A DNA stretch of 25,029 nucleotides from a virus, in the IMG/VR virus record IMGVR_UViG_3300006924_000154, positions 1-25,029 of that record; one strand, written 5' to 3'. Below, piece by piece: positions 349-22,472 of this stretch. The notes beneath the pieces are model-generated. The model was not told where the DNA came from and did no database searches. It saw nothing but the letters and a program-made list of their open reading frames with translations. The translations under genes were made by a program, and so were the position numbers. Position 1 is the stretch's first letter. Each line of letters starts with the position of its first letter.

Positions 349-555
349 TCAATATTTTTTTCTTAGACCAGAACCAGATCTAATGACAAAACCGTTGTAA
401 TATGGGTTTTTTGTTAGAACAACATAAGTTGAGATCATTTCTACTTTCTTTTTCAACTTAGTATCAAAGCCATAATTCTTACCCTTTATTGTTCCAACTT
501 CCCATTTTTTTGATTTGTGGTTCATGAACTCTATTTCTTCTCCAGCTTTATACAT
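349..555 (-). CDS. Hypothetical protein, 68 aa, SH3-like composition
   Basis: Small basic protein (ATG at 553-555) that overlaps the end of the dCMP deaminase gene by 25 bp and closes the nucleotide-modification operon. The alternation of short beta-like segments (AGEEIEFMNHKSKKWEVGTI) resembles a small SH3-like barrel, but I cannot name a family. No function is claimed. Confidence 0.6.
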   Translation of the reverse strand: MYKAGEEIEFMNHKSKKWEVGTIKGKNYGFDTKLKKKVEMISTYVVLTKNPYYNGFVIRSGSGLRKKY

Positions 556-965
556 GATATGCCTGCTTTGTTTAGTAGGTTTTTTCCGTTTTGTTTTCTA
601 TATTCTAAATGGTAGACTACCCTTTTGATCTTTGCTTGAATAATTAACTTAGCACAATCAAAACATGGTAGCATAGTGCAATATAGGGTTGATCCTTCTG
701 ATGAGATTGTTGAAGTTGCACATTTTACTATGGCATTAGATTCAGCATGAATAACTTCTGATTTTGTAACATTATCAACCTCGCAAGTGTTATTAAAACC
801 AGTTGGAGTCCCGTTATATCCCATTGCTATAATAGTTCCATCTTTTACTAATATGGCCCCTACTTTAGCTCTTTTTGCTTTAGAACATAAGCTAATCTCT
901 TTGGCTATCTCAATATAAGTGTAATCACTGACTGACAAGATGTTGCATTTTTTGTGTAAACTCAT
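531..965 (-). CDS. dCMP deaminase (zinc-dependent)
   Basis: Cytidine/deoxycytidylate deaminase fold, 144 aa from the ATG at 963-965. Zinc ligands and catalytic glutamate are visible: HAE at residues 73-75 and PCFDC at 100-104. 'RAKVGAILVKDG' and 'GYNGTPTGF' are typical of phage dCMP deaminases. The enzyme turns dCMP into dUMP for dTMP synthesis. It overlaps the upstream thymidylate-synthase-like gene by 41 bp and the downstream 68-aa gene by 25 bp. An ATG at 987-989 (MICQDQKAMS...) would add 8 residues; a longer reading uses TTG at 1004. I prefer 965 because it gives the usual spacing to the first conserved helix. Next to a dCMP hydroxymethylase it would divide the dCMP pool between dUMP and modified dCMP. 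Confidence 0.85.
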   Translation of the reverse strand: MSLHKKCNILSVSDYTYIEIAKEISLCSKAKRAKVGAILVKDGTIIAMGYNGTPTGFNNTCEVDNVTKSEVIHAESNAIVKCATSTISSEGSTLYCTMLPCFDCAKLIIQAKIKRVVYHLEYRKQNGKNLLNKAGISCIKLEKK

Positions 966-1725
966 AGCTTTCTGATCTTGGCAAATCATTAAGCTTAAAA
1001 TCAATCAAATCTTTTACTTCATAACTACTATGGATCTTAGGTAAATTAATGGGATGCACTTCTTCGTTATTTTCCACAATGGAGGTAACCATTTTTAAAT
1101 GTCGTTCATAAAAGTGTAATGAATCTGCTTTGTGAAAATAAGTTCCCACCTCAAGTTTAGGGTAGAACTGTTTTAACATAATTAAAACCATTTCTCTTAT
1201 AAAAAAGAATTGAGGTACATCAATGCATGTTCCATATATTAAGTCGTTTGATCTCATTGAGACACTCATATTAAGCTTATTGTCTCTTATCCTAAATGAT
1301 ATAGCATTTGTGCAAATTTTGTCACTTGATTCACTCATCATCACTTCTGGTCTATTTAGAACAATAGTAGCTTGCCTTGAATCCTTATCTTCAATAAGCT
1401 TATCAACAATGTATTGGAACTGGTTTTCAGTAAAAAAATAGTAACCATAGTTTGAATTGTAGTATGGTTTTTTCTTGTTTTTTATAGTAGCCCAGAAAGA
1501 TGATGTCTCTTCTATGTAGGTGTTGTTCCTATCTCCAGATAGATACCAGTTAAATTCTTTAGCGATATATGATAATGATAGTTTTCTACTTGGGAAGTTT
1601 GCAAATGGTTGATCAATATAAAAGCAAAAATCTTCTATCTCATAACATTTAATCCCTCTAGCGTTTATCTCATTAGATCCAAAGTATAGTGTTTTAAAAA
1701 TATCTTTCCAGTTCTGACAAATCAT
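925..1725 (-). CDS. Thymidylate-synthase-family enzyme, predicted dCMP hydroxymethylase
   Basis: 266 aa from the ATG at 1723-1725; a TTG at 1734 would add 3 residues. The numbers here count from that TTG. Recognisable thymidylate synthase blocks are 'DSRQATIVLNRPEVM', the catalytic Cys141 in 'KICTNA', 'MRSNDLIYG' (Arg161, Asp164) and 'DSLHFYERHL' (His207, Tyr209). Aligned with E. coli ThyA from the conserved Arg (R166), position 177 is Asp172 ('YGTCID' against 'LGLPFN'). Asn at that site reads dUMP, and Asp is the known signature of T4-type dCMP hydroxymethylase and its relatives. The His after the catalytic Cys in ThyA is Thr here. The predicted reaction is dCMP plus methylene-tetrahydrofolate to 5-hydroxymethyl-dCMP. 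It overlaps the kinase gene upstream by 32 bp. A dCMP methylase is an alternative product. Confidence 0.78.
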   Translation of the reverse strand: MICQNWKDIFKTLYFGSNEINARGIKCYEIEDFCFYIDQPFANFPSRKLSLSYIAKEFNWYLSGDRNNTYIEETSSFWATIKNKKKPYYNSNYGYYFFTENQFQYIVDKLIEDKDSRQATIVLNRPEVMMSESSDKICTNAISFRIRDNKLNMSVSMRSNDLIYGTCIDVPQFFFIREMVLIMLKQFYPKLEVGTYFHKADSLHFYERHLKMVTSIVENNEEVHPINLPKIHSSYEVKDLIDFKLNDLPRSESYEFTQKMQHLVSQ

Positions 1726-2242
1726 TGCTTTCAATTGTGTTTCCGTTAAAATTTAACTCAATTAATTTTTTTATAGTTTGATATTCTTTATGTTGAATAT
1801 CTCTTAGATTTTTCGGTCTATATTTATCATCTTCTACAATTGGTATTGGACTCATTAAACATATGTGATCGTAGCAAAACTCCTGAACAAACTCAAAGTG
1901 ATTGTGCAAAGATTCACTCAATCTGTAAAAGTTTTTTTGATTCTTCTTTGTTAATTCCTCTATGTTGATGTAGGTGTTTAGATAGTAGAATGAATCAAAA
2001 ATCGATCTATCTATTAAAACATCTGTGTTTTTTACACAATCTATTTCTTGTAAGATTTTGGCCATTATGATTTTCTCTTGAAAAGAGAAGTATTCATTTG
2101 GCTTAGATCTTATTTCATCAATGTCAATATCATACTTTCTTACCTCTTCACCTAAAATTTTAAAATATGGGTATTTATTTTTTAAGAGATTGATCATAGT
2201 GGTCTTCCCACTGTGGCATGCACCACTAAAAGCTATTCTCAT
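1694..2242 (-). CDS. P-loop (AAA-type) kinase, putative deoxynucleotide kinase
   Basis: 182 aa, ATG at 2240-2242. Walker A is GACHSGKT (residues 7-14), and 'VLIDRSIFD' (75-83) corresponds to the DRS-like segment of nucleoside and nucleotide kinases. 'DDKYRPKNLRDIQ' near the C-terminus looks like an arginine-containing lid. This fits the AAA_28/NadR-like group of small P-loop kinases common in phages. The gene is wedged between the carbamoyltransferase (17-bp overlap) and the predicted dCMP hydroxymethylase (32-bp overlap). My inference is that it phosphorylates the modified deoxycytidine monophosphate towards the triphosphate. A kinase with another substrate cannot be excluded. Confidence 0.7.
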   Translation of the reverse strand: MRIAFSGACHSGKTTMINLLKNKYPYFKILGEEVRKYDIDIDEIRSKPNEYFSFQEKIIMAKILQEIDCVKNTDVLIDRSIFDSFYYLNTYINIEELTKKNQKNFYRLSESLHNHFEFVQEFCYDHICLMSPIPIVEDDKYRPKNLRDIQHKEYQTIKKLIELNFNGNTIESNDLSELERYF

Positions 2243-3824
2243 ACAAAAGGATGTTTTCTATTTCTGAATCTTCTCTTACTTGGTAGTTGTAGTTTAACTT
2301 TACATCTCCATGTGTAAAAACTATTGGCTGGCCATGAACATTAAATGAGGTGTTGACTAAACATTTCACTCCTATTTCATTGCACTTTTCTAAGATCTTG
2401 TAGATAAGTGAACTCTCATCATCAATTACTTGAGGACGCCCAGAATATCTATCTTCAAGTGGATATTGGTGCATTACACCATCATATTCATCATGACTAA
2501 CAGATTGATTGTAGTCATGAGTTATGATCATGAATTTATTACTACCAACAACCTTTTTTACGTCTTCTTTTTTAAAGAAAAAATCAACATTCTTACGTAG
2601 CATAACAGGCGCACATGGCATGTATGTGTCTCTGCCGTTTATCTTGTTTACATGATCAACTATTTTTTTCCTTGGTAGAAAGATAGAAGACGTGTTGCAT
2701 AAAGCTCTTGGGCCAAATTCCATATCACCTTGAACAATGTTGACTATTCCACCATTAGTTATTGATTCAATGATCTGTGACATACTATATTGAGATCTTT
2801 TTTTCTCTTCCACTTTCCTCTTACCAAACCTTAAAGATCCAATTTCAAGTCCTTTAACAGCACCTAAAGCCGCGCCCTGATCACCACAAACTGGCATTAC
2901 ACATATTGTTTTTAAGGCATTGGCTAAGACATTGTTTAACTTCACGTTGTAGAAAACTCCACCTGCACAACAAACATTCTTATTTTCAAGTCCTATGAAC
3001 TTGACCATTTTCATGACAGTTTGTTCAAGTAATGATTGGACAAAATAGGCAACAATGATTTTTGTGTCACTATCTTCTTTAAAAACGCTAGTCACGTCAT
3101 TTAGCATTTGATAAACATCTTTCCTAGCCTCATCAAGTAGTTCAAAAGGAATCAGGGATTCTGAAACAATTGGGATGGTTGAATTACACAAACCATCTAC
3201 GTAAATTTTTACGTATTTAGATATTAAAGGATCTAGTACTTGCTTATCCTCTATTGATATGTGTGATTCATATCCAAGTAGTTTGTACTCATCTTGATTT
3301 TCTTTCATTCCAAGGAAACCAATAGAATATTGATACAACAAGCCAAGAGAAAACTTGTATGTGTAAGAACTCCAAATTTCACTCTCAATATTTAAACCAT
3401 CATAACTGAAAACAGAAAATGACTTACCAAAGTTTCCAAATCCATCAATAACAAGAGAAAAACCGTTTGCCTCTCCATTGTGTTCATAGTTGAAATTAAC
3501 GGCTGACTGAGCATGTAATTTATGATGATCAATATGATCTTCAACAGTGCAATTATAGTTCTGAATCAGATCATTCAGAGACTTTTGATCAACGTACTTG
3601 TTGTCAATATCCCTATTAGTAAACCAATCACTTATCGATATCTTACATCCTGATATGTCGATGTGTTTCTTGATTTCATTTATGGCATCAATGGGCCAGT
3701 TTGAACTGCTTTTAATTTTATCAAAACGCTCTTGCTCATAGCCAATTATTTCCTTTGTTGTCTCGTTGTAGTAAACTGCAGACGCATTGTGTCCTACAGT
3801 TATAAGTAAATTCTTATTGCTCAT
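2226..3824 (-). CDS. NodU/TobZ/CmcH-family carbamoyltransferase, predicted 5-hydroxymethylcytosine carbamoyltransferase
   Basis: 532 aa with the complete two-domain layout of the family. The N-terminal Kae1/YrdC-fold ASKHA domain has the metal-binding HHKLHA (residues 100-105), 'LVIDGFGNFGKS' (124-134), 'QDEYKLLGYE' (177-186), 'GGVFYNVKLNN' (288-298) and 'CGDQGAALGA' (313-322). The C-terminal domain has 'GDMEFGPRAL' (366-375), 'YMPCAPVMLR' (401-410) and 'LVNTSFNVHGQP' (489-500). Family members use carbamoyl phosphate and ATP to carbamoylate a hydroxyl group. A phage-type member is known from metagenomic work as 5-hydroxymethylcytosine carbamoyltransferase, making 5-carbamoyloxymethylcytosine. 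The neighbouring predicted dCMP hydroxymethylase supplies the matching hydroxyl. ATG at 3822-3824, overlapping the MazG-like gene by 11 bp. The substrate is inferred from context. Confidence 0.85.
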   Translation of the reverse strand: MSNKNLLITVGHNASAVYYNETTKEIIGYEQERFDKIKSSSNWPIDAINEIKKHIDISGCKISISDWFTNRDIDNKYVDQKSLNDLIQNYNCTVEDHIDHHKLHAQSAVNFNYEHNGEANGFSLVIDGFGNFGKSFSVFSYDGLNIESEIWSSYTYKFSLGLLYQYSIGFLGMKENQDEYKLLGYESHISIEDKQVLDPLISKYVKIYVDGLCNSTIPIVSESLIPFELLDEARKDVYQMLNDVTSVFKEDSDTKIIVAYFVQSLLEQTVMKMVKFIGLENKNVCCAGGVFYNVKLNNVLANALKTICVMPVCGDQGAALGAVKGLEIGSLRFGKRKVEEKKRSQYSMSQIIESITNGGIVNIVQGDMEFGPRALCNTSSIFLPRKKIVDHVNKINGRDTYMPCAPVMLRKNVDFFFKKEDVKKVVGSNKFMIITHDYNQSVSHDEYDGVMHQYPLEDRYSGRPQVIDDESSLIYKILEKCNEIGVKCLVNTSFNVHGQPIVFTHGDVKLNYNYQVREDSEIENILLYENSF

Positions 3825-4116
3825 ATTTTACAAAAGTTCCGTTGTTCATTTTTCCTTTTCTGTCCTTGATCATTTCGTAGGCTGAATCAATGCAATCTTC
3901 TATTTTTAAACCACATAGATAAGAAAGATTTGTAAGCACAACAACACAATCTCCTATTGCATCAATAATATCATCTTCATCTTCTTCTAAAATTGCTGAA
4001 GATAGTTCTCCTACTTCTTCGACTAGTTTCAACACTTGAGTTTTAGGATCTCCTTCTATGAGGATACCTCTATCAGATGCCCATTCTCTAATTAATATAA
4101 ATCTTGGATGTTCCAT
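3814..4116 (-). CDS. MazG-like nucleotide pyrophosphohydrolase
   Basis: 100 aa from the ATG at 4114-4116; a TTG at 4143 lies inside the -7 box and is unlikely. The first metal motif is EEVGE (33-37) and the second is 'DAIGD' (52-56), with Asp in place of the usual leading Glu. The C-terminal 'DRKGKMNNGTFVKY' is typical of phage MazG-like proteins. Such enzymes cleave (d)NTPs to (d)NMPs and pyrophosphate. First gene of the modification operon, 25 nt after a TAnnTTTG box. A tempting inference is dCTP hydrolysis, feeding dCMP to the hydroxymethylase and clearing unmodified dCTP as T4 gp56 does, although gp56 is a different family and the specificity is not visible. Confidence 0.8.
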   Translation of the reverse strand: MEHPRFILIREWASDRGILIEGDPKTQVLKLVEEVGELSSAILEEDEDDIIDAIGDCVVVLTNLSYLCGLKIEDCIDSAYEMIKDRKGKMNNGTFVKYEQ

Positions 4117-4140
4117 TTTTCGTTGTTTTGGTTTATAAGG

Positions 4141-4166
4141 CAAAAATAAGTATAAAGTTTTATACT
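4141..4166 (-). promoter_or_regulatory. Early-type promoter with palindromic operator (copy 2), drives the modification operon
   Basis: Minus-strand TATTTTTG (4141-4148, TAnnTTTG) lies one base from GTATAAAACTTTATAC (4150-4165), a near-perfect copy of the palindrome at 320 and 18288 with one changed centre pair. The leader ends in CCAAAACAACGAAAA before the MazG-like ATG, 24 nt from the -7 box. No TTG -33 box is evident. Confidence 0.65.
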
Positions 4167-4389: not shown

Positions 4390-4935
4390 TTAGTTTTTAG
4401 CTTCATCCATAGCAGTAGAATGATCAACCCAAGGTGAATTGATTTCAGGAACATCTCTACGATTTAAGTTCGCACCAAAGATAGTTCCTAGATTTTCGAC
4501 AGCGTCCTTGATTGCATATGATTTTGCTGCTGGAACTGCCAATTGGATAGCGTTCGCTTTGATAGCTCCTAAGTCGGCAGCAGAAGCTCCTTTATCTGTC
4601 TGTACGTTTACTGCTCCAACTCCGTCAACATATCTCCATGTGTTTGTAATTGGGTGCAAGTAATTGACTCGAACAGTTACTTGAACTGAATTAAAAAGCG
4701 GCTGTACTTGCTTAACTTCAATATCAAACTGCTGAAATATCTTCCTGAGCATCTCTTCGATAATCTCAATCGGGATGTATTTCAACTTCTTCTGAAAAGG
4801 GTGAGTTCTTACCCAAGATGGTCGAGGCTCTTTTGAAAGCAATTGATTGAAAGTTTCAATTTTACCTTTCAACTCAAGTTCGGATGCAATTACTTTGATT
4901 GCTGATTCTTTCTTCGCTGGTAGTTTTTCAGACAT
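4390..4935 (-). CDS. Rad52/Sak-like single-strand DNA annealing protein
   Basis: 181 aa, ATG at 4933-4935. 'KYIPIEIIEEMLRKIF' (52-67), 'GVGAVNVQ' (105-112) and 'PAAKSYAIKDAVENLG' (135-150) followed by 'IFGANLNR' match the Rad52/Sak pattern: a Y(I/L)P helix, a G.GA strand and an A-x-x-DA-x-x-LG-x-x-FG helix. Such proteins anneal complementary single strands during phage recombination and replication. The gene overlaps the 71-aa gene by 8 bp and shares the operon of the DnaA-like protein. The putative exonuclease at the left edge would provide the single strands. The core matches the family and the ends are short, so the subfamily is uncertain. Confidence 0.7.
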   Translation of the reverse strand: MSEKLPAKKESAIKVIASELELKGKIETFNQLLSKEPRPSWVRTHPFQKKLKYIPIEIIEEMLRKIFQQFDIEVKQVQPLFNSVQVTVRVNYLHPITNTWRYVDGVGAVNVQTDKGASAADLGAIKANAIQLAVPAAKSYAIKDAVENLGTIFGANLNRRDVPEINSPWVDHSTAMDEAKN

Positions 4936-5143
4936 CTTTTAAAAGTATTGTACCCCCGTTCTTACGAACTAAAGCCTGACCGACTACAAACACAGATTCT
5001 TGCATTCCGTTTATTTCTACCATGATAGGTTCTTTAGTCTTGATTGCTTCTCCTATTACCCTTCGAAAGTAAACAAGATTCCCAGTGTTTTTTTTCTCGT
5101 GGTAATCCTGGATAGTAGTCCACTCTTCAACTTTCACTGACAT
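4928..5143 (-). CDS. Hypothetical early protein, 71 aa
   Basis: ATG at 5141-5143, coupled to the preceding gene by a TAATG stop/start overlap, and it overlaps the annealing-protein gene by 8 bp. Mixed alpha/beta composition with a beta-rich second half (EPIMVEINGMQESVFVVGQA). No family recognised. The tight packing between a DNA-binding protein and a recombination protein suggests a role in DNA metabolism, but nothing in the sequence shows it. Confidence 0.65.
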   Translation of the reverse strand: MSVKVEEWTTIQDYHEKKNTGNLVYFRRVIGEAIKTKEPIMVEINGMQESVFVVGQALVRKNGGTILLKDV

Positions 5144-5649
5144 TATCTATATCTATTTGTGTACAATTTTGATTTTATTTTAAATTTCTCTCTCAACTCT
5201 TCAAGATCTTCTGAAATTAAATCAAAGGTTGAAAGAACTTCTCGACATAGCTTTTCAACTTGTTCAACTTCGCTATTTTCTTGCTCTAAGTTTACAGGTT
5301 CAGGATTTGAAAACTTATCAAGTTCCTTGACGATGTCAAAAATATCTTGATTTGGAATCTTATTGTTTGGACCAACTGGCTGAATCAATTCAAGTATTCT
5401 CTTTTTTGAGTTCAAAACAGTTGCGTGATCTCTACCTCCTGAAACCTTTCCAATTTGATTGAGTGTGAAAAGAGTGTTTTTCGATGCGATGTAGTGATAC
5501 AAATGTCGAGCAAGAACAAAGTCTCCATCTCTTCTTTTACTGATCACGTTTTCTTTTGATTCACCCATGATCATACAGACATCATTTAAAATAGATTCAA
5601 GCCTTGAAAAAGCGTATTTATCACGGAATTTTTTTCTTGTTTCGTTCAT
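5143..5649 (-). CDS. DnaA domain IV-like DNA-binding protein, no AAA+ domain
   Basis: 168 aa, ATG at 5647-5649. Residues 12-90 match the C-terminal DNA-binding domain of DnaA: 'CMIMGESKENVISKRRDGDFVLARHL' type helices (25-50), then the signature 'IGKVSGGRDHATVLNSKKRI' (66-85), close to the bacterial 'GRDHTTVL' motif that contacts the DnaA box. The ATPase domain (III) and domains I-II are absent. The rest (120-165) is an acidic, Glu/Leu-rich probable coiled coil. First gene after an early-type promoter. It could recruit or compete for host DnaA boxes or mark the phage origin. Domain identity is firm, role inferred. Confidence 0.8.
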   Translation of the reverse strand: MNETRKKFRDKYAFSRLESILNDVCMIMGESKENVISKRRDGDFVLARHLYHYIASKNTLFTLNQIGKVSGGRDHATVLNSKKRILELIQPVGPNNKIPNQDIFDIVKELDKFSNPEPVNLEQENSEVEQVEKLCREVLSTFDLISEDLEELREKFKIKSKLYTNRYR

Positions 5650-5672: not shown

Positions 5673-5696
5673 CAAATATAGTATAAAATTTTAAAC
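5673..5696 (-). promoter_or_regulatory. Early-type promoter with palindromic operator (copy 3), DnaA-like operon
   Basis: Minus-strand TATATTTG (5673-5680) abuts GTTTAAAATTTTATAC (5681-5696), which differs from the perfect palindrome at one base. TTG lies 18 nt upstream of the -7 box, the best-spaced -33 candidate of the four copies. The leader CCAAACAAACAGTGAAAG precedes the ATG 23 nt downstream. Confidence 0.65.
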
Positions 5697-18279: not shown

Positions 18280-18303
18280 CAAATGTAGTATAAAATTTTA
18301 TAC
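18280..18303 (-). promoter_or_regulatory. Early-type promoter with palindromic operator (copy 4)
   Basis: Minus-strand TACATTTG (18280-18287) abuts the perfect palindrome GTATAAAATTTTATAC (18288-18303), identical to copy 1 over 24 bases, with a 28-nt leader to the ATG. It sits directly downstream of the structural terminator, so the cassette is uncoupled from late transcription. Confidence 0.65.
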
Positions 18304-19551: not shown

Positions 19552-19755
19552 CTACTCATCGTTTGTTGGTATTTCAATTTGTGTTGTTTCTCTACCATTG
19601 AGCCACTCGTTGAGTATCGGTTTAAACTTTATGTATTTCTTTCCTTCAAACTCTATCGGCTCACCCTGCCAAGTGTCTTGGTCAATAGTTCCGAAAAGGT
19701 GTAAGTCAATAGCGTCTATATCTTCTTGGAAGGATGATGTTTCAAATACTTGCAT
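19552..19755 (-). CDS. Small acidic virion-region protein, 67 aa
   Basis: ATG at 19753-19755 overlaps the stop of the 905-aa gene (TAATG). Acidic, beta/alpha mixed (DLHLFGTIDQDTWQGEPIEF). No family recognised. Position between a connector-region protein and the tail tube allows a tail terminator or stopper accessory role, which the sequence does not prove. Confidence 0.6.
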   Translation of the reverse strand: MQVFETSSFQEDIDAIDLHLFGTIDQDTWQGEPIEFEGKKYIKFKPILNEWLNGRETTQIEIPTNDE

Positions 19756-22472
19756 TAGACAATAGTTGTTTGTGTGAAATTGTACTTAGTACCATACGCT
19801 GCACCTTGAGTATTTAGGTCAGCTACTGAACTATCCTCATTTACAACCTTAAATGCTGCGATAGTACCTTGAGAACGGACAATACCTATAAATGTACCAA
19901 GACATCTAAACGCAACACCCCCTTGTGCTGAGTAACTAGATTTGTTTTCCGTATCTAACGCAACGCCATTTCGGTATAATGTAATAGTACCGCTTGAGCC
20001 GTTTGTTACTCTAAAGCAATACACCGCAGGTGTGTCTAGTGCGCTATCGTTTAAAAGTGGATCAGAGCCGCTTGAGTAAACGTCATTTTGATAGCGAACA
20101 TAACCTAAGTCGTCAAACCAACCAATCGACCTACTATCGCCACTCTTAGCTGACCCACCTAAAAGGTCAACTTTTTGGCCTGATGCTGCATTCCCTACAA
20201 ACCAAAAGTTGAAGCCTGTTTCGTAAAATACTCTCATTGGGTAGGTAAAGAATAGATAATCTGAGTTAAGGCTGAAGGTAGGTTGGTTATTGTAGGCAGC
20301 ATCTGAAGCCGTGTAGCTTGGCTGCAAAGACCCCGATGTTTGATAGAGGTCGTTTCCTATTGGCCCTTGATCTTGAATAGCACTAACAGAGCCGCCTGAC
20401 TCTGTAAGGTTATCGCCTGAGATGTCTACTTCTGTAGCAGATGTCGCGCTTGCGCTTATGTTCACAGCAGCAGGATAAGACCCTACTACCGAACCATTCA
20501 CAGTCAATTGAATATCTGGCAACACTAACGTGCCACCACTTGCAACAGTGTTTGTGTAACTGTTGTCTGAGTTTTCGACATTTGCATCAGGCGCTAGAAC
20601 CGTGTCAGTGACTGTGGCTTTTACTGAGTTACTTGATAAAACTGAGCCAAGAGTATTAACCACATTGACAGTTGAATCAGCGACATTGTAAACTCCTGAA
20701 CCCTCTGCTGTTACGGTTGCGCTTGCAATCAAAGTACCGTCACTCTGGTTAATGTTAATGGTTGCATCTGCAATGATAATATCCTCGCTCACATTGCTAG
20801 GAATTAACTCAGACTTCAGAACTGCGTTTAAAGTGTTTTTAATCACAGCAGTAGCATCAGGAGCAGTAATAGTTGATGCATCAGTAGCTAAGACGTTTGT
20901 AGTAGATAATGTAGACCCGTCCGTATTGTCTAAAGTAATAACGCTGTCGGGGATTCTAAAATGCGCACCTTGTTTTGAACCTATTAATGTGCTTCCACTT
21001 GATTGCCTTACCTGAATGTTTAAGGTTGCGCCCGAAGCTACATTGTCGAAAAATACACTATTTACATTGACAGTGCCATCTGCCGATAAACTACAAACGA
21101 CATTTACAACAGAAGCCTGAGTAAACGTACTCCCATCGCTGTCTGTGACTGTAATGTCAGGAAGCGTAAGCGTTCCTCCACTTGCCACAGTATTGGTGTA
21201 GCTACTGTCGCTATTTTCTACCGTAGCATCTGCTGAAGGCGTGCAAAGTACGTTTTGGACACTAGGTACAGAAGACGTTGAACCATCCGAATCTGTAACT
21301 GTAATATCAGGCAAGACTAAAGTACCTCCACTTGCAACAGTATTTGTATAACTACTGTCGGAATTTTCTACCGTAGCATCTGCTGCAGGTGAACAAACTA
21401 CATCTTTAACACTAGGAACGCTTGAAATAGAGCCATCGCTATCTGTCACATTAATGTCTGGCAGTACTAAAGTACCTCCACTTGCTACTGTGTTTGAATA
21501 ACTAGTGTCGCTATTTTCTACTGTTGCGTCTGATGCTGGTGAACAAACTACGTCTTGAACACTAGGTACAGAAGAAGTCGAACCATCTGAATCTGTAACT
21601 GTAATATCAGGCAGAACCAAAGTAGCTCCACTTGCTACTGTATTAGTATAGCTTGAATCTGAGTTCTCAACAAAGCCACTACCGCCACCACCGCTAACAG
21701 TGTAAGAAGAGCCTGCGTCAACCATTGTAATCAGATTGCCGTTACTGTCTAGGATAAACACTTGAGGACATACACGAGTTGATGCAGTATCAGAGCAATC
21801 AAAATCAACCATGATAGGAAGATTAATAGTCACCTCAATTCCTGAAAGCGTTCTCTGAAAGATTCCTTGAGCTTCATTGCCTCCTAAATCGCCACCTCCG
21901 ATAGTAAGCTTTGCATGGTTTGTCGTTTCAATAACACCAAAATCACCAGTCCTTTTATTCGCTTCTAGTTCTACAAGAAATAAATTAACAAGAGTCAGGA
22001 CAGGATTTACAATCTCTTCATACATCTGTTCTGTGTCTCTCGACCAGTCATCTGTATTCGCAAAGAAAAGCCTGACTTGACCTTCGCTTTCAATTTTACT
22101 GTCCAAATCTGAAGGCCGTGTCCGTTGCTGGTTTTCAAGCATCCAGATCAAAGGCATGATGTCCAAGTCTTGAGGATCTGAAAGTTCTGTTAAAACAGCT
22201 TGATATTTGCCATGTTTGAAAGTAGGATTCCTTAGAGCAAAAATACCTGTAGTCGGTTGGACTGCTCCTTCAAGAATTAAGTATTCGTCTTGAACAAAGC
22301 TTTCAACAACATATTGAACGCTACCAATTTCAAGCTCAGAGAGCGTGTTTAAATATTGAGTATTAGAACAATATACTTTCCAGTTTGAGCCAGAAGCTTC
22401 AACTGAATCAATTTTCAAGGTCACTGACATTGAAGCAATAACCTCTCGAAGCAGTGTTGATACTTGTAGCAT
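19755..22472 (-). CDS. Large virion protein with tandem repeats and LamG-like C-terminus, 905 aa
   Basis: ATG at 22470-22472, 1 nt after the stop of the connector-like gene; an ATG at residue 15 (MSVTLKID) is an alternative. Domains: residues 15-230 are a beta-rich structural domain near the head-tail junction; 268-467 hold four tandem 50-residue repeats built on 'VENSDSSYTNTVASG', 'LPDITVTDSDGS' and a conserved 'VVCSP' Cys; 470-640 have degenerate beta repeats; a fifth diverged copy begins at about 632; 690-905 look like a concanavalin/LamG-type jelly roll ('FSLNSDYLFFTYPM', 'TITLYRNGVALD'). It is probably a neck or tail appendage that binds cell-surface glycans. The N-terminal part may join the virion. 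Confidence 0.7.
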   Translation of the reverse strand: MLQVSTLLREVIASMSVTLKIDSVEASGSNWKVYCSNTQYLNTLSELEIGSVQYVVESFVQDEYLILEGAVQPTTGIFALRNPTFKHGKYQAVLTELSDPQDLDIMPLIWMLENQQRTRPSDLDSKIESEGQVRLFFANTDDWSRDTEQMYEEIVNPVLTLVNLFLVELEANKRTGDFGVIETTNHAKLTIGGGDLGGNEAQGIFQRTLSGIEVTINLPIMVDFDCSDTASTRVCPQVFILDSNGNLITMVDAGSSYTVSGGGGSGFVENSDSSYTNTVASGATLVLPDITVTDSDGSTSSVPSVQDVVCSPASDATVENSDTSYSNTVASGGTLVLPDINVTDSDGSISSVPSVKDVVCSPAADATVENSDSSYTNTVASGGTLVLPDITVTDSDGSTSSVPSVQNVLCTPSADATVENSDSSYTNTVASGGTLTLPDITVTDSDGSTFTQASVVNVVCSLSADGTVNVNSVFFDNVASGATLNIQVRQSSGSTLIGSKQGAHFRIPDSVITLDNTDGSTLSTTNVLATDASTITAPDATAVIKNTLNAVLKSELIPSNVSEDIIIADATININQSDGTLIASATVTAEGSGVYNVADSTVNVVNTLGSVLSSNSVKATVTDTVLAPDANVENSDNSYTNTVASGGTLVLPDIQLTVNGSVVGSYPAAVNISASATSATEVDISGDNLTESGGSVSAIQDQGPIGNDLYQTSGSLQPSYTASDAAYNNQPTFSLNSDYLFFTYPMRVFYETGFNFWFVGNAASGQKVDLLGGSAKSGDSRSIGWFDDLGYVRYQNDVYSSGSDPLLNDSALDTPAVYCFRVTNGSSGTITLYRNGVALDTENKSSYSAQGGVAFRCLGTFIGIVRSQGTIAAFKVVNEDSSVADLNTQGAAYGTKYNFTQTTIV
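21072..21671 (-). repeat. Four tandem 150-bp repeats inside the 905-aa virion gene
   Basis: Copies at 21522-21671, 21372-21521, 21222-21371 and 21072-21221, each exactly 150 bp (50 codons). The protein is highly conserved while synonymous sites differ, so the copies are old enough to drift but kept under selection. A fifth, partial copy starts at 20579 and runs leftward. Confidence 0.9.

Follow-up and report, generated by a model that had tools for sequence, protein, structure and literature searches.

We propose that a cassette of five genes in the analysed window, which is an entire IMG/VR virus record of 25,029 bases, quite probably replaces the cytosine of the phage with 5-carbamoyloxymethylcytosine by a route like that of phage T4. 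The cassette lies on the minus strand, where five overlapping genes running from 4143 down to 531 encode a MazG-like enzyme, a carbamoyltransferase (CT), a kinase, a thymidylate-synthase homologue and a dCMP deaminase. The original prediction of a 5-carbamoyloxymethylcytosine pathway is retained as the best reading of the sequences, with the CT grouping with the proven enzyme in one clade and sharing its diagnostic residues, and with the synthase homologue having the Asp that selects cytosine. As discussed below, the MetaGPA study had already described the modification, this type of enzyme and, as a set, four of the five genes. The present analysis adds that the kinase forms a recurrent family that is nearly specific to the cassette, and that isolated Bacteroides phages have the trio of CT, kinase and hydroxymethylase.

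The consequences are threefold. A DNA modification that is known by assay would be extended, as predicted from the genes, to a Bacteroidota phage. The trio is present in culturable Bacteroides fragilis phages (BF503P2 and its relatives), so that the predicted base can be sought in existing virions. Moreover, the kinase family, being almost confined to the cassette, would close the only missing step, that from 5-hydroxymethyl-dCMP to a polymerase substrate.

Layout and transcription of the cassette

All five genes gave family matches far above chance in the Pfam and PHROG scans, and the claim of five enzymes in overlapping frames thus stands. The first gene (3814-4143, minus strand) encodes a MazG-like nucleotide pyrophosphohydrolase (PF03819, 4.6e-8; PHROG MazG-like phrog_1992, 1e-35), for which ATG at 4116 is more likely to be the start than TTG at 4143. 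It is followed on the same strand by the gene of a NodU/TobZ-type O-carbamoyltransferase of 532 aa (2226-3824), where both the N and the C domains of the NodU-type carbamoyltransferases are matched (PF16861, 2.2e-29, and PF02543, 1.9e-16; PHROG Nol-like carbamoyltransferase, 7e-65). Then come, also on the minus strand, the gene of a P-loop kinase of 182 aa with a predicted deoxynucleoside/thymidylate-kinase fold (1694-2242; AAA_28, 1.7e-10; dNK, 1.5e-8), that of the thymidylate-synthase homologue, a putative dCMP 5-hydroxymethylase (925-1734; PF00303, 2e-18), the start of which is more likely ATG 1725, and that of the dCMP deaminase (531-1004; PF00383, 2.3e-23; phrog_174, 2.9e-52), which has intact HAE and PCxxC zinc motifs and likely starts at ATG 989 or 965. 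Depending on the start codons, the adjacent frames overlap by about 11, 17, 32-41 and 41-65 nt. The last of the run is a 68-aa ORF (349-555, minus strand) that overlaps the deaminase gene; the Pfam and PHROG scans gave no significant family match for it and its membership in the cassette is uncertain. The range of 349-4143 that was given at first is therefore right for the five genes from 531 to 4143, while its start at 349 takes in this sixth ORF.

Ahead of the cassette, at 4150-4165, there is a palindrome, GTATAAARTTTTATAC / GTATAAAGTTTTATAC, with a TAnnTTTG-like −7 box directly downstream on the minus strand, which is a candidate promoter/operator. Note that TAnnTTTG is the −7 box of Bacteroidota promoters. 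In the window the palindrome GTATAAARTTTTATAC has three exact copies and one further copy with a single mismatch, all four being located 31-36 nt upstream of a minus-strand start codon (ATG), and 300 order-3 Markov simulations did not produce a single exact copy. Three copies run straight into TAnnTTTG and the copy of the cassette has the same box shifted by one base. Since one copy lies ahead of the MazG gene and the next downstream copy is only at 320-335, with none between, the cassette is plausibly a single transcription unit, which supports the one promoter that had been proposed for it. Another motif, AAAACAACGA, which is present ahead of several starts, is not clearly above the chance expectation.

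The promoter type, together with a capsid protein that is 43-44% identical to the capsids of Flavobacterium phages, makes a member of the Bacteroidota the likely host, and the description of the virus as looking like a flavobacterial phage is supported to the extent of a Bacteroidota-phage origin. Note also that no DNA polymerase is recognised in the record, which is a fragment of 25 kb, and thus further modification enzymes may lie outside it.

The carbamoyltransferase and the proposed supply of its acceptor

In the MetaGPA study an expressed CT, the sequence of which is printed, converts 5-hydroxymethylcytosine to 5-carbamoyloxymethylcytosine (Yang et al. 2021, eLife 10:e70021, PMC8670742). 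That enzyme acts on single-stranded DNA, on RNA and on the triphosphate, with the conversion being near-complete for single-stranded DNA and about 60% for 5-hydroxymethyl-dCTP (eLife 10:e70021), so that the carbamoylation of 5-hydroxymethylcytosine by a NodU-like enzyme, which the original prediction took as established chemistry, is indeed so. The CT of the window aligns with the assayed enzyme from end to end in BLASTP (224 bits, 32% identity). It was also found in that study that the positions W408, G421 and R423 of TobZ separate modified from unmodified contigs (eLife 10:e70021). We placed these positions on the window CT via our own TobZ alignment, where they fall within the stretch IVNIVQGDMEFGPRALCNTSS. 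The window CT has I, C and T at the three positions, the same as the assayed enzyme, with the C and T of its motif MEFGPRALCNTS replacing G421 and R423 of TobZ. At positions 421 and 423, G and R are found in the six outgroup Nol-type proteins, which come from three cyanophages, a Pelagibacter phage, phage C48C1 and phage XacN1, while position 408 discriminates less well because W is also missing in most of these six. Residues H100, H101, H104, D127 and D315 of the window CT, which we take to be the metal and carbamoyl-site residues, are invariant across the CT alignment.

In the tree, the window CT, the assayed enzyme and all of the synthase-linked relatives form one clade against the six Nol outgroups, with a support of 100/100; inside the clade the window CT branches off deeply, the outgroups being long-branched and its exact placement unsure. 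By full-length homology, clade and diagnostic residues, the window CT thus groups with the 5-hydroxymethylcytosine carbamoyltransferases of MetaGPA, and we propose that it is one of them. Its acceptor could nevertheless differ from that of the proven enzyme, because it branches deeply, shares 32% identity with the proven enzyme and reaches at most about 43% with any relative found. Among 26 CTs on bacterial and archaeal genome contigs, a synthase is present within 6 kb for all three members of the subfamily and for none of the 23 distant ones. In IMG/VR, a search with the window protein as the sole query gave no CT match, and a search by an alignment including phage and assayed sequences gave 53 related loci.

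The acceptor would be supplied by the synthase homologue, the best solved relative of which is the T4 dCMP hydroxymethylase (7.7e-21), with the thymidylate synthases at 6.7e-15 or weaker. Its catalytic Cys141 is in a CTN context, the same as in T4, and its Asp172 is at E. coli position 177, the selector of cytosine over uracil. Of the CT-linked synthase homologues that are long enough to align (near-copies included), all carry Asp at position 177 together with Cys at position 146. The control, a synthase from Pseudomonas phage M6 that forms a derivative of uracil, has Asn at position 177, and thus the column discriminates. The homologue is therefore of the Asp type, as had been predicted, and with its catalytic Cys and Asp it groups with the dCMP hydroxymethylases (T4 gp42-like, PF00303 superfamily). 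Because the T4 enzyme is the best solved relative and because the CT requires a hydroxyl acceptor, the product would be a hydroxymethyl rather than a methyl group. For the deaminase, a role as an anti-phage dCTP deaminase was considered and rejected, with only matches to the shared deaminase domain being found, far below the cut-off.

The proposed pathway and the place of the kinase

Based on our model, the MazG-like enzyme would convert dCTP to dCMP, draining the normal pool, and the Asp-type synthase would convert dCMP to 5-hydroxymethyl-dCMP, a step strongly supported by its residues and its closest solved relative. 5-Hydroxymethyl-dCMP is unlikely to be a substrate of the host CMP kinase, and the cassette kinase would bring it to the diphosphate, as its fold and its near-exclusive association suggest. 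The host nucleoside-diphosphate kinase would then, by analogy with T4, give the triphosphate, which the polymerase would insert into DNA. The CT, with carbamoyl phosphate and ATP, would transfer a carbamoyl group to the hydroxymethyl group, either in single-stranded DNA in the course of replication, or in the triphosphate, or in both; the insertion and the carbamoylation may occur in either order, since DNA and 5-hydroxymethyl-dCTP are both substrates of the assayed relative. The dCMP deaminase would convert surplus dCMP to dUMP for thymidylate. The modified DNA would presumably be hidden from restriction enzymes that read cytosine.

The kinase is closely tied to the other two genes of the trio. 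Its homologues are present in 15 of the 53 IMG/VR CT loci, with the synthase gene being next in every case and with the gene orders being CT-kinase-synthase or kinase-synthase-CT. In a search of 50,697 phage records, homologues were found only in six Bacteroides phages, all having a CT. When IMG/VR was scanned starting from the kinase, 23 loci were obtained, 20 of them with an adjacent CT; among the other three, one ends right after the kinase, one has a synthase while a CT is lacking within 5 kb, and one is barely beyond a P-loop match. The P-loop GxxxxGK[TS], E32 and DR[SA]xxDS are conserved in the family. An AlphaFold model that was built from the window protein and its IMG/VR homologues has a pLDDT of 89.9, and in the fold search its top solved matches are Drosophila dNK and human dCK, followed by thymidylate kinases scoring nearly alike, with TM-scores of about 0.45-0.7 to dCK, dNK and TMPK. 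Against the solved structures, phmmer with the single kinase sequence gave no match and the profile of the family gave mostly P-loop matches. With the P-loop, the DRS/DRA motif and a fold match over the whole chain, the protein falls among the deoxynucleoside and dNMP kinases (dNK-TMPK fold); judged from the model it is a small-molecule kinase, and the predicted fold fits nucleoside and monophosphate kinases about equally. From the position of the gene beside the hydroxymethylase and from the need of T4 for such a kinase, we infer that the substrate is 5-hydroxymethyl-dCMP. Of the earlier proposal that the kinase raises hydroxymethyl-dCMP to the triphosphate, the nucleotide kinase is plausible, while its action would most plausibly extend only from the mono- to the diphosphate, with the host nucleoside-diphosphate kinase finishing. 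A kinase of the window family is absent from the phages of the MazG/PRA class, and thus the step is not universally encoded by the cassette.

It is also conceivable, though rather unlikely, that the same base is made in another order, with 5-hydroxymethyl-dCMP or the triphosphate being carbamoylated first, the kinase taking the carbamoylated monophosphate and the carbamoylated dCTP entering DNA. This would fit with the CT, kinase and synthase genes being neighbours in both gene orders and with the conversion of about 60% of 5-hydroxymethyl-dCTP by the proven CT (eLife 10:e70021). However, the same CT converts single-stranded DNA almost fully (eLife 10:e70021), and the phages of the MazG/PRA class manage without a kinase of the window family. 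More doubtful still is that the kinase family is specific to hypermodification and takes the carbamoylated monophosphate as its substrate, in which case fully carbamoylated dCTP would be made before replication and be inserted directly; if true, this would be unlike T4, which decorates finished DNA.

We give only a minor chance to the kinase being a deoxynucleoside salvage kinase, which would convert dC or hydroxymethyl-dC to the monophosphate and thus feed the synthase rather than act after it. Drosophila dNK and human dCK are the top solved folds and the Pfam match to dNK (1.5e-8) points the same way, but the thymidylate kinases score nearly equally, the near-exclusive linkage to the synthase and the CT would be unexplained, and hydroxymethyl-dCMP would still lack a route to the diphosphate. 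It is very unlikely that the protein is a DNA kinase phosphorylating hydroxymethyl groups within DNA, as happens when thymine is hypermodified in phages M6 and ViI, which would add to the modification or replace it. The protein does have a P-loop and is encoded within a hypermodification cassette, and hhalign to the P-loop protein gp54 of M6 does align the P-loop, but that match is of 27 residues and covers the P-loop only. Among the ORFs in 34 kb of the 59 kb M6 genome, where the M6 DNA kinase gene was not singled out, the kinase profile has no significant match (best E 0.3-0.43) and no homology beyond the P-loop was found; moreover, the predicted fold is that of a deoxynucleoside/thymidylate kinase over the whole chain, and the carbamoyl transfer does not need a phosphorylated acceptor. 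Finally, it is barely credible that the CT decorates a small molecule or a surface sugar in the manner of NodU/TobZ, with the synthase neighbourhood being accidental, because, although the Pfam family and its solved members are mostly small-molecule O-carbamoyltransferases, the subfamily motif, the clade and the consistent synthase linkage speak against it.

Comparison with known systems

The closest comparison is with MetaGPA, where the CT, the synthase, a MazG-clan pyrophosphohydrolase and dCMP deaminase are found together on cytosine-modified phage contigs (eLife 10:e70021, PMC8670742). The window shares with that cassette the CT clade and motif, the Asp-type synthase, the MazG-clan pyrophosphohydrolase, the dCMP deaminase and the phage setting. 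It differs in adding the kinase, the word 'kinase' being absent from the main text of that paper, in its deep-branching CT at 32% identity and in its host, which is probably a member of the Bacteroidota. The supposition that this gene set with a dedicated kinase had not been described in detail thus holds for the kinase, which MetaGPA does not report, but not for the rest of the set, and the CT and the kinase are present, though unrecognised, in six Bacteroides phages of GenBank. In the open-licence literature, no paper except MetaGPA joins a carbamoyltransferase with a dCMP hydroxymethylase, and there is no account of the Bacteroides phages or Xp15 regarding a carbamoyltransferase cassette.

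These Bacteroides fragilis phages, BF503P2, BF486P2 and four relatives (OP172667-OP172672), have the CT, the kinase and the dCMP hydroxymethylase in the order of the window and in overlapping frames (2 of the 6 genomes in full), with CTs that are 34-40% identical to the window CT. In GenBank, their CT and kinase are labelled hypothetical proteins. In the two genomes in full, there are a dUTPase and a second Asp-type synthase, and DUF3310 precedes the CT, whereas in the window MazG and the deaminase are next door. Xanthomonas phage Xp15 and the Acinetobacter phages Effie, HHU4 and MD-2021a resemble the window in having the CT, a MazG-clan hydrolase, an Asp-type synthase and dCMP deaminase. They differ from it in having no kinase of the window family and in having a protein of ~275 aa ahead of the CT, which was considered as the missing kinase and rejected, with neither a P-loop nor a Pfam match.

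The hydroxymethylcytosine pathway of T4 consists of the gp42 hydroxymethylase, the gp1 dNMP kinase, the gp56 dCTPase, dCMP deaminase and glucosyltransferases. The proposed pathway follows the same stepwise logic, and gp42 is the closest solved structure to the synthase homologue of the window. The two differ in that the group added would be carbamoyl in the window and is glucose in T4, and in that the roles of the kinase and the pyrophosphohydrolase are matched by function rather than by sequence.

Promoter element and other genes of the window

It is noted that the palindrome GTATAAARTTTTATAC, together with a TAnnTTTG box, precedes four minus-strand genes of the window (palindrome copies at 320-335, 4150-4165, 5681-5696 and 18288-18303), with one copy having one mismatch. 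This common element probably defines a phage regulon. The palindromic promoter also heads the gene at 5143-5649. The phage protein encoded there lacks an ATPase domain and contains a helix-turn-helix resembling that of DnaA domain IV (PF08299, 1e-14). At 4390-4935, the match to phrog_15333 (2.6e-16), with a Pfam match under the cut-off (0.012), makes a Rad52-like annealing protein a possible product. The 905-aa protein encoded at 19755-22472 is internally repetitive, with units of about 40 residues (VENSDSSYTNTVASGGTLVLPDITVTDSDGS...), and is probably a protein of the tail fibre or tip.

Kinase fusions and additional synthase copies

A uracil-DNA-glycosylase-superfamily domain (PF03167, 8e-11 to 4e-7) is fused to the C-terminus of the cassette kinase in three contigs of related phages (L007:8137-9411, L010:6670-7944 and L037:7888-9201). 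Here the base-modification cassette holds a base-excision-type domain.

Immediately 3' of the carbamoyltransferase or the kinase, several related loci (L007, L010-L013, L016, L018, L020, L023, L037 and L054) have a very divergent second paralogue of the synthase, of about 200-230 aa, with CL following the Cys, a FRASD motif and Asp retained at position 177. The two copies tested were not recognized by PHROGs. This paralogue could serve as a partner subunit, or it could be a distinct enzyme. Moreover, Bacteroides phages and relatives (L002, L005, L014, L022 and L058) encode two synthases of the Asp type; one follows the kinase and the other a dUTPase.

Protein upstream of the carbamoyltransferase in Xp15-type cassettes

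In most cassettes of the Xp15 type (as in Xanthomonas phage Xp15 and Acinetobacter phages Effie, HHU4 and MD-2021a, with the carbamoyltransferase and without this kinase family), an unassigned protein of about 275 aa, in which cysteines are conserved, is encoded immediately 5' of the carbamoyltransferase (L004:7159-7989 and its homologues); this is perhaps a DNA-binding protein.
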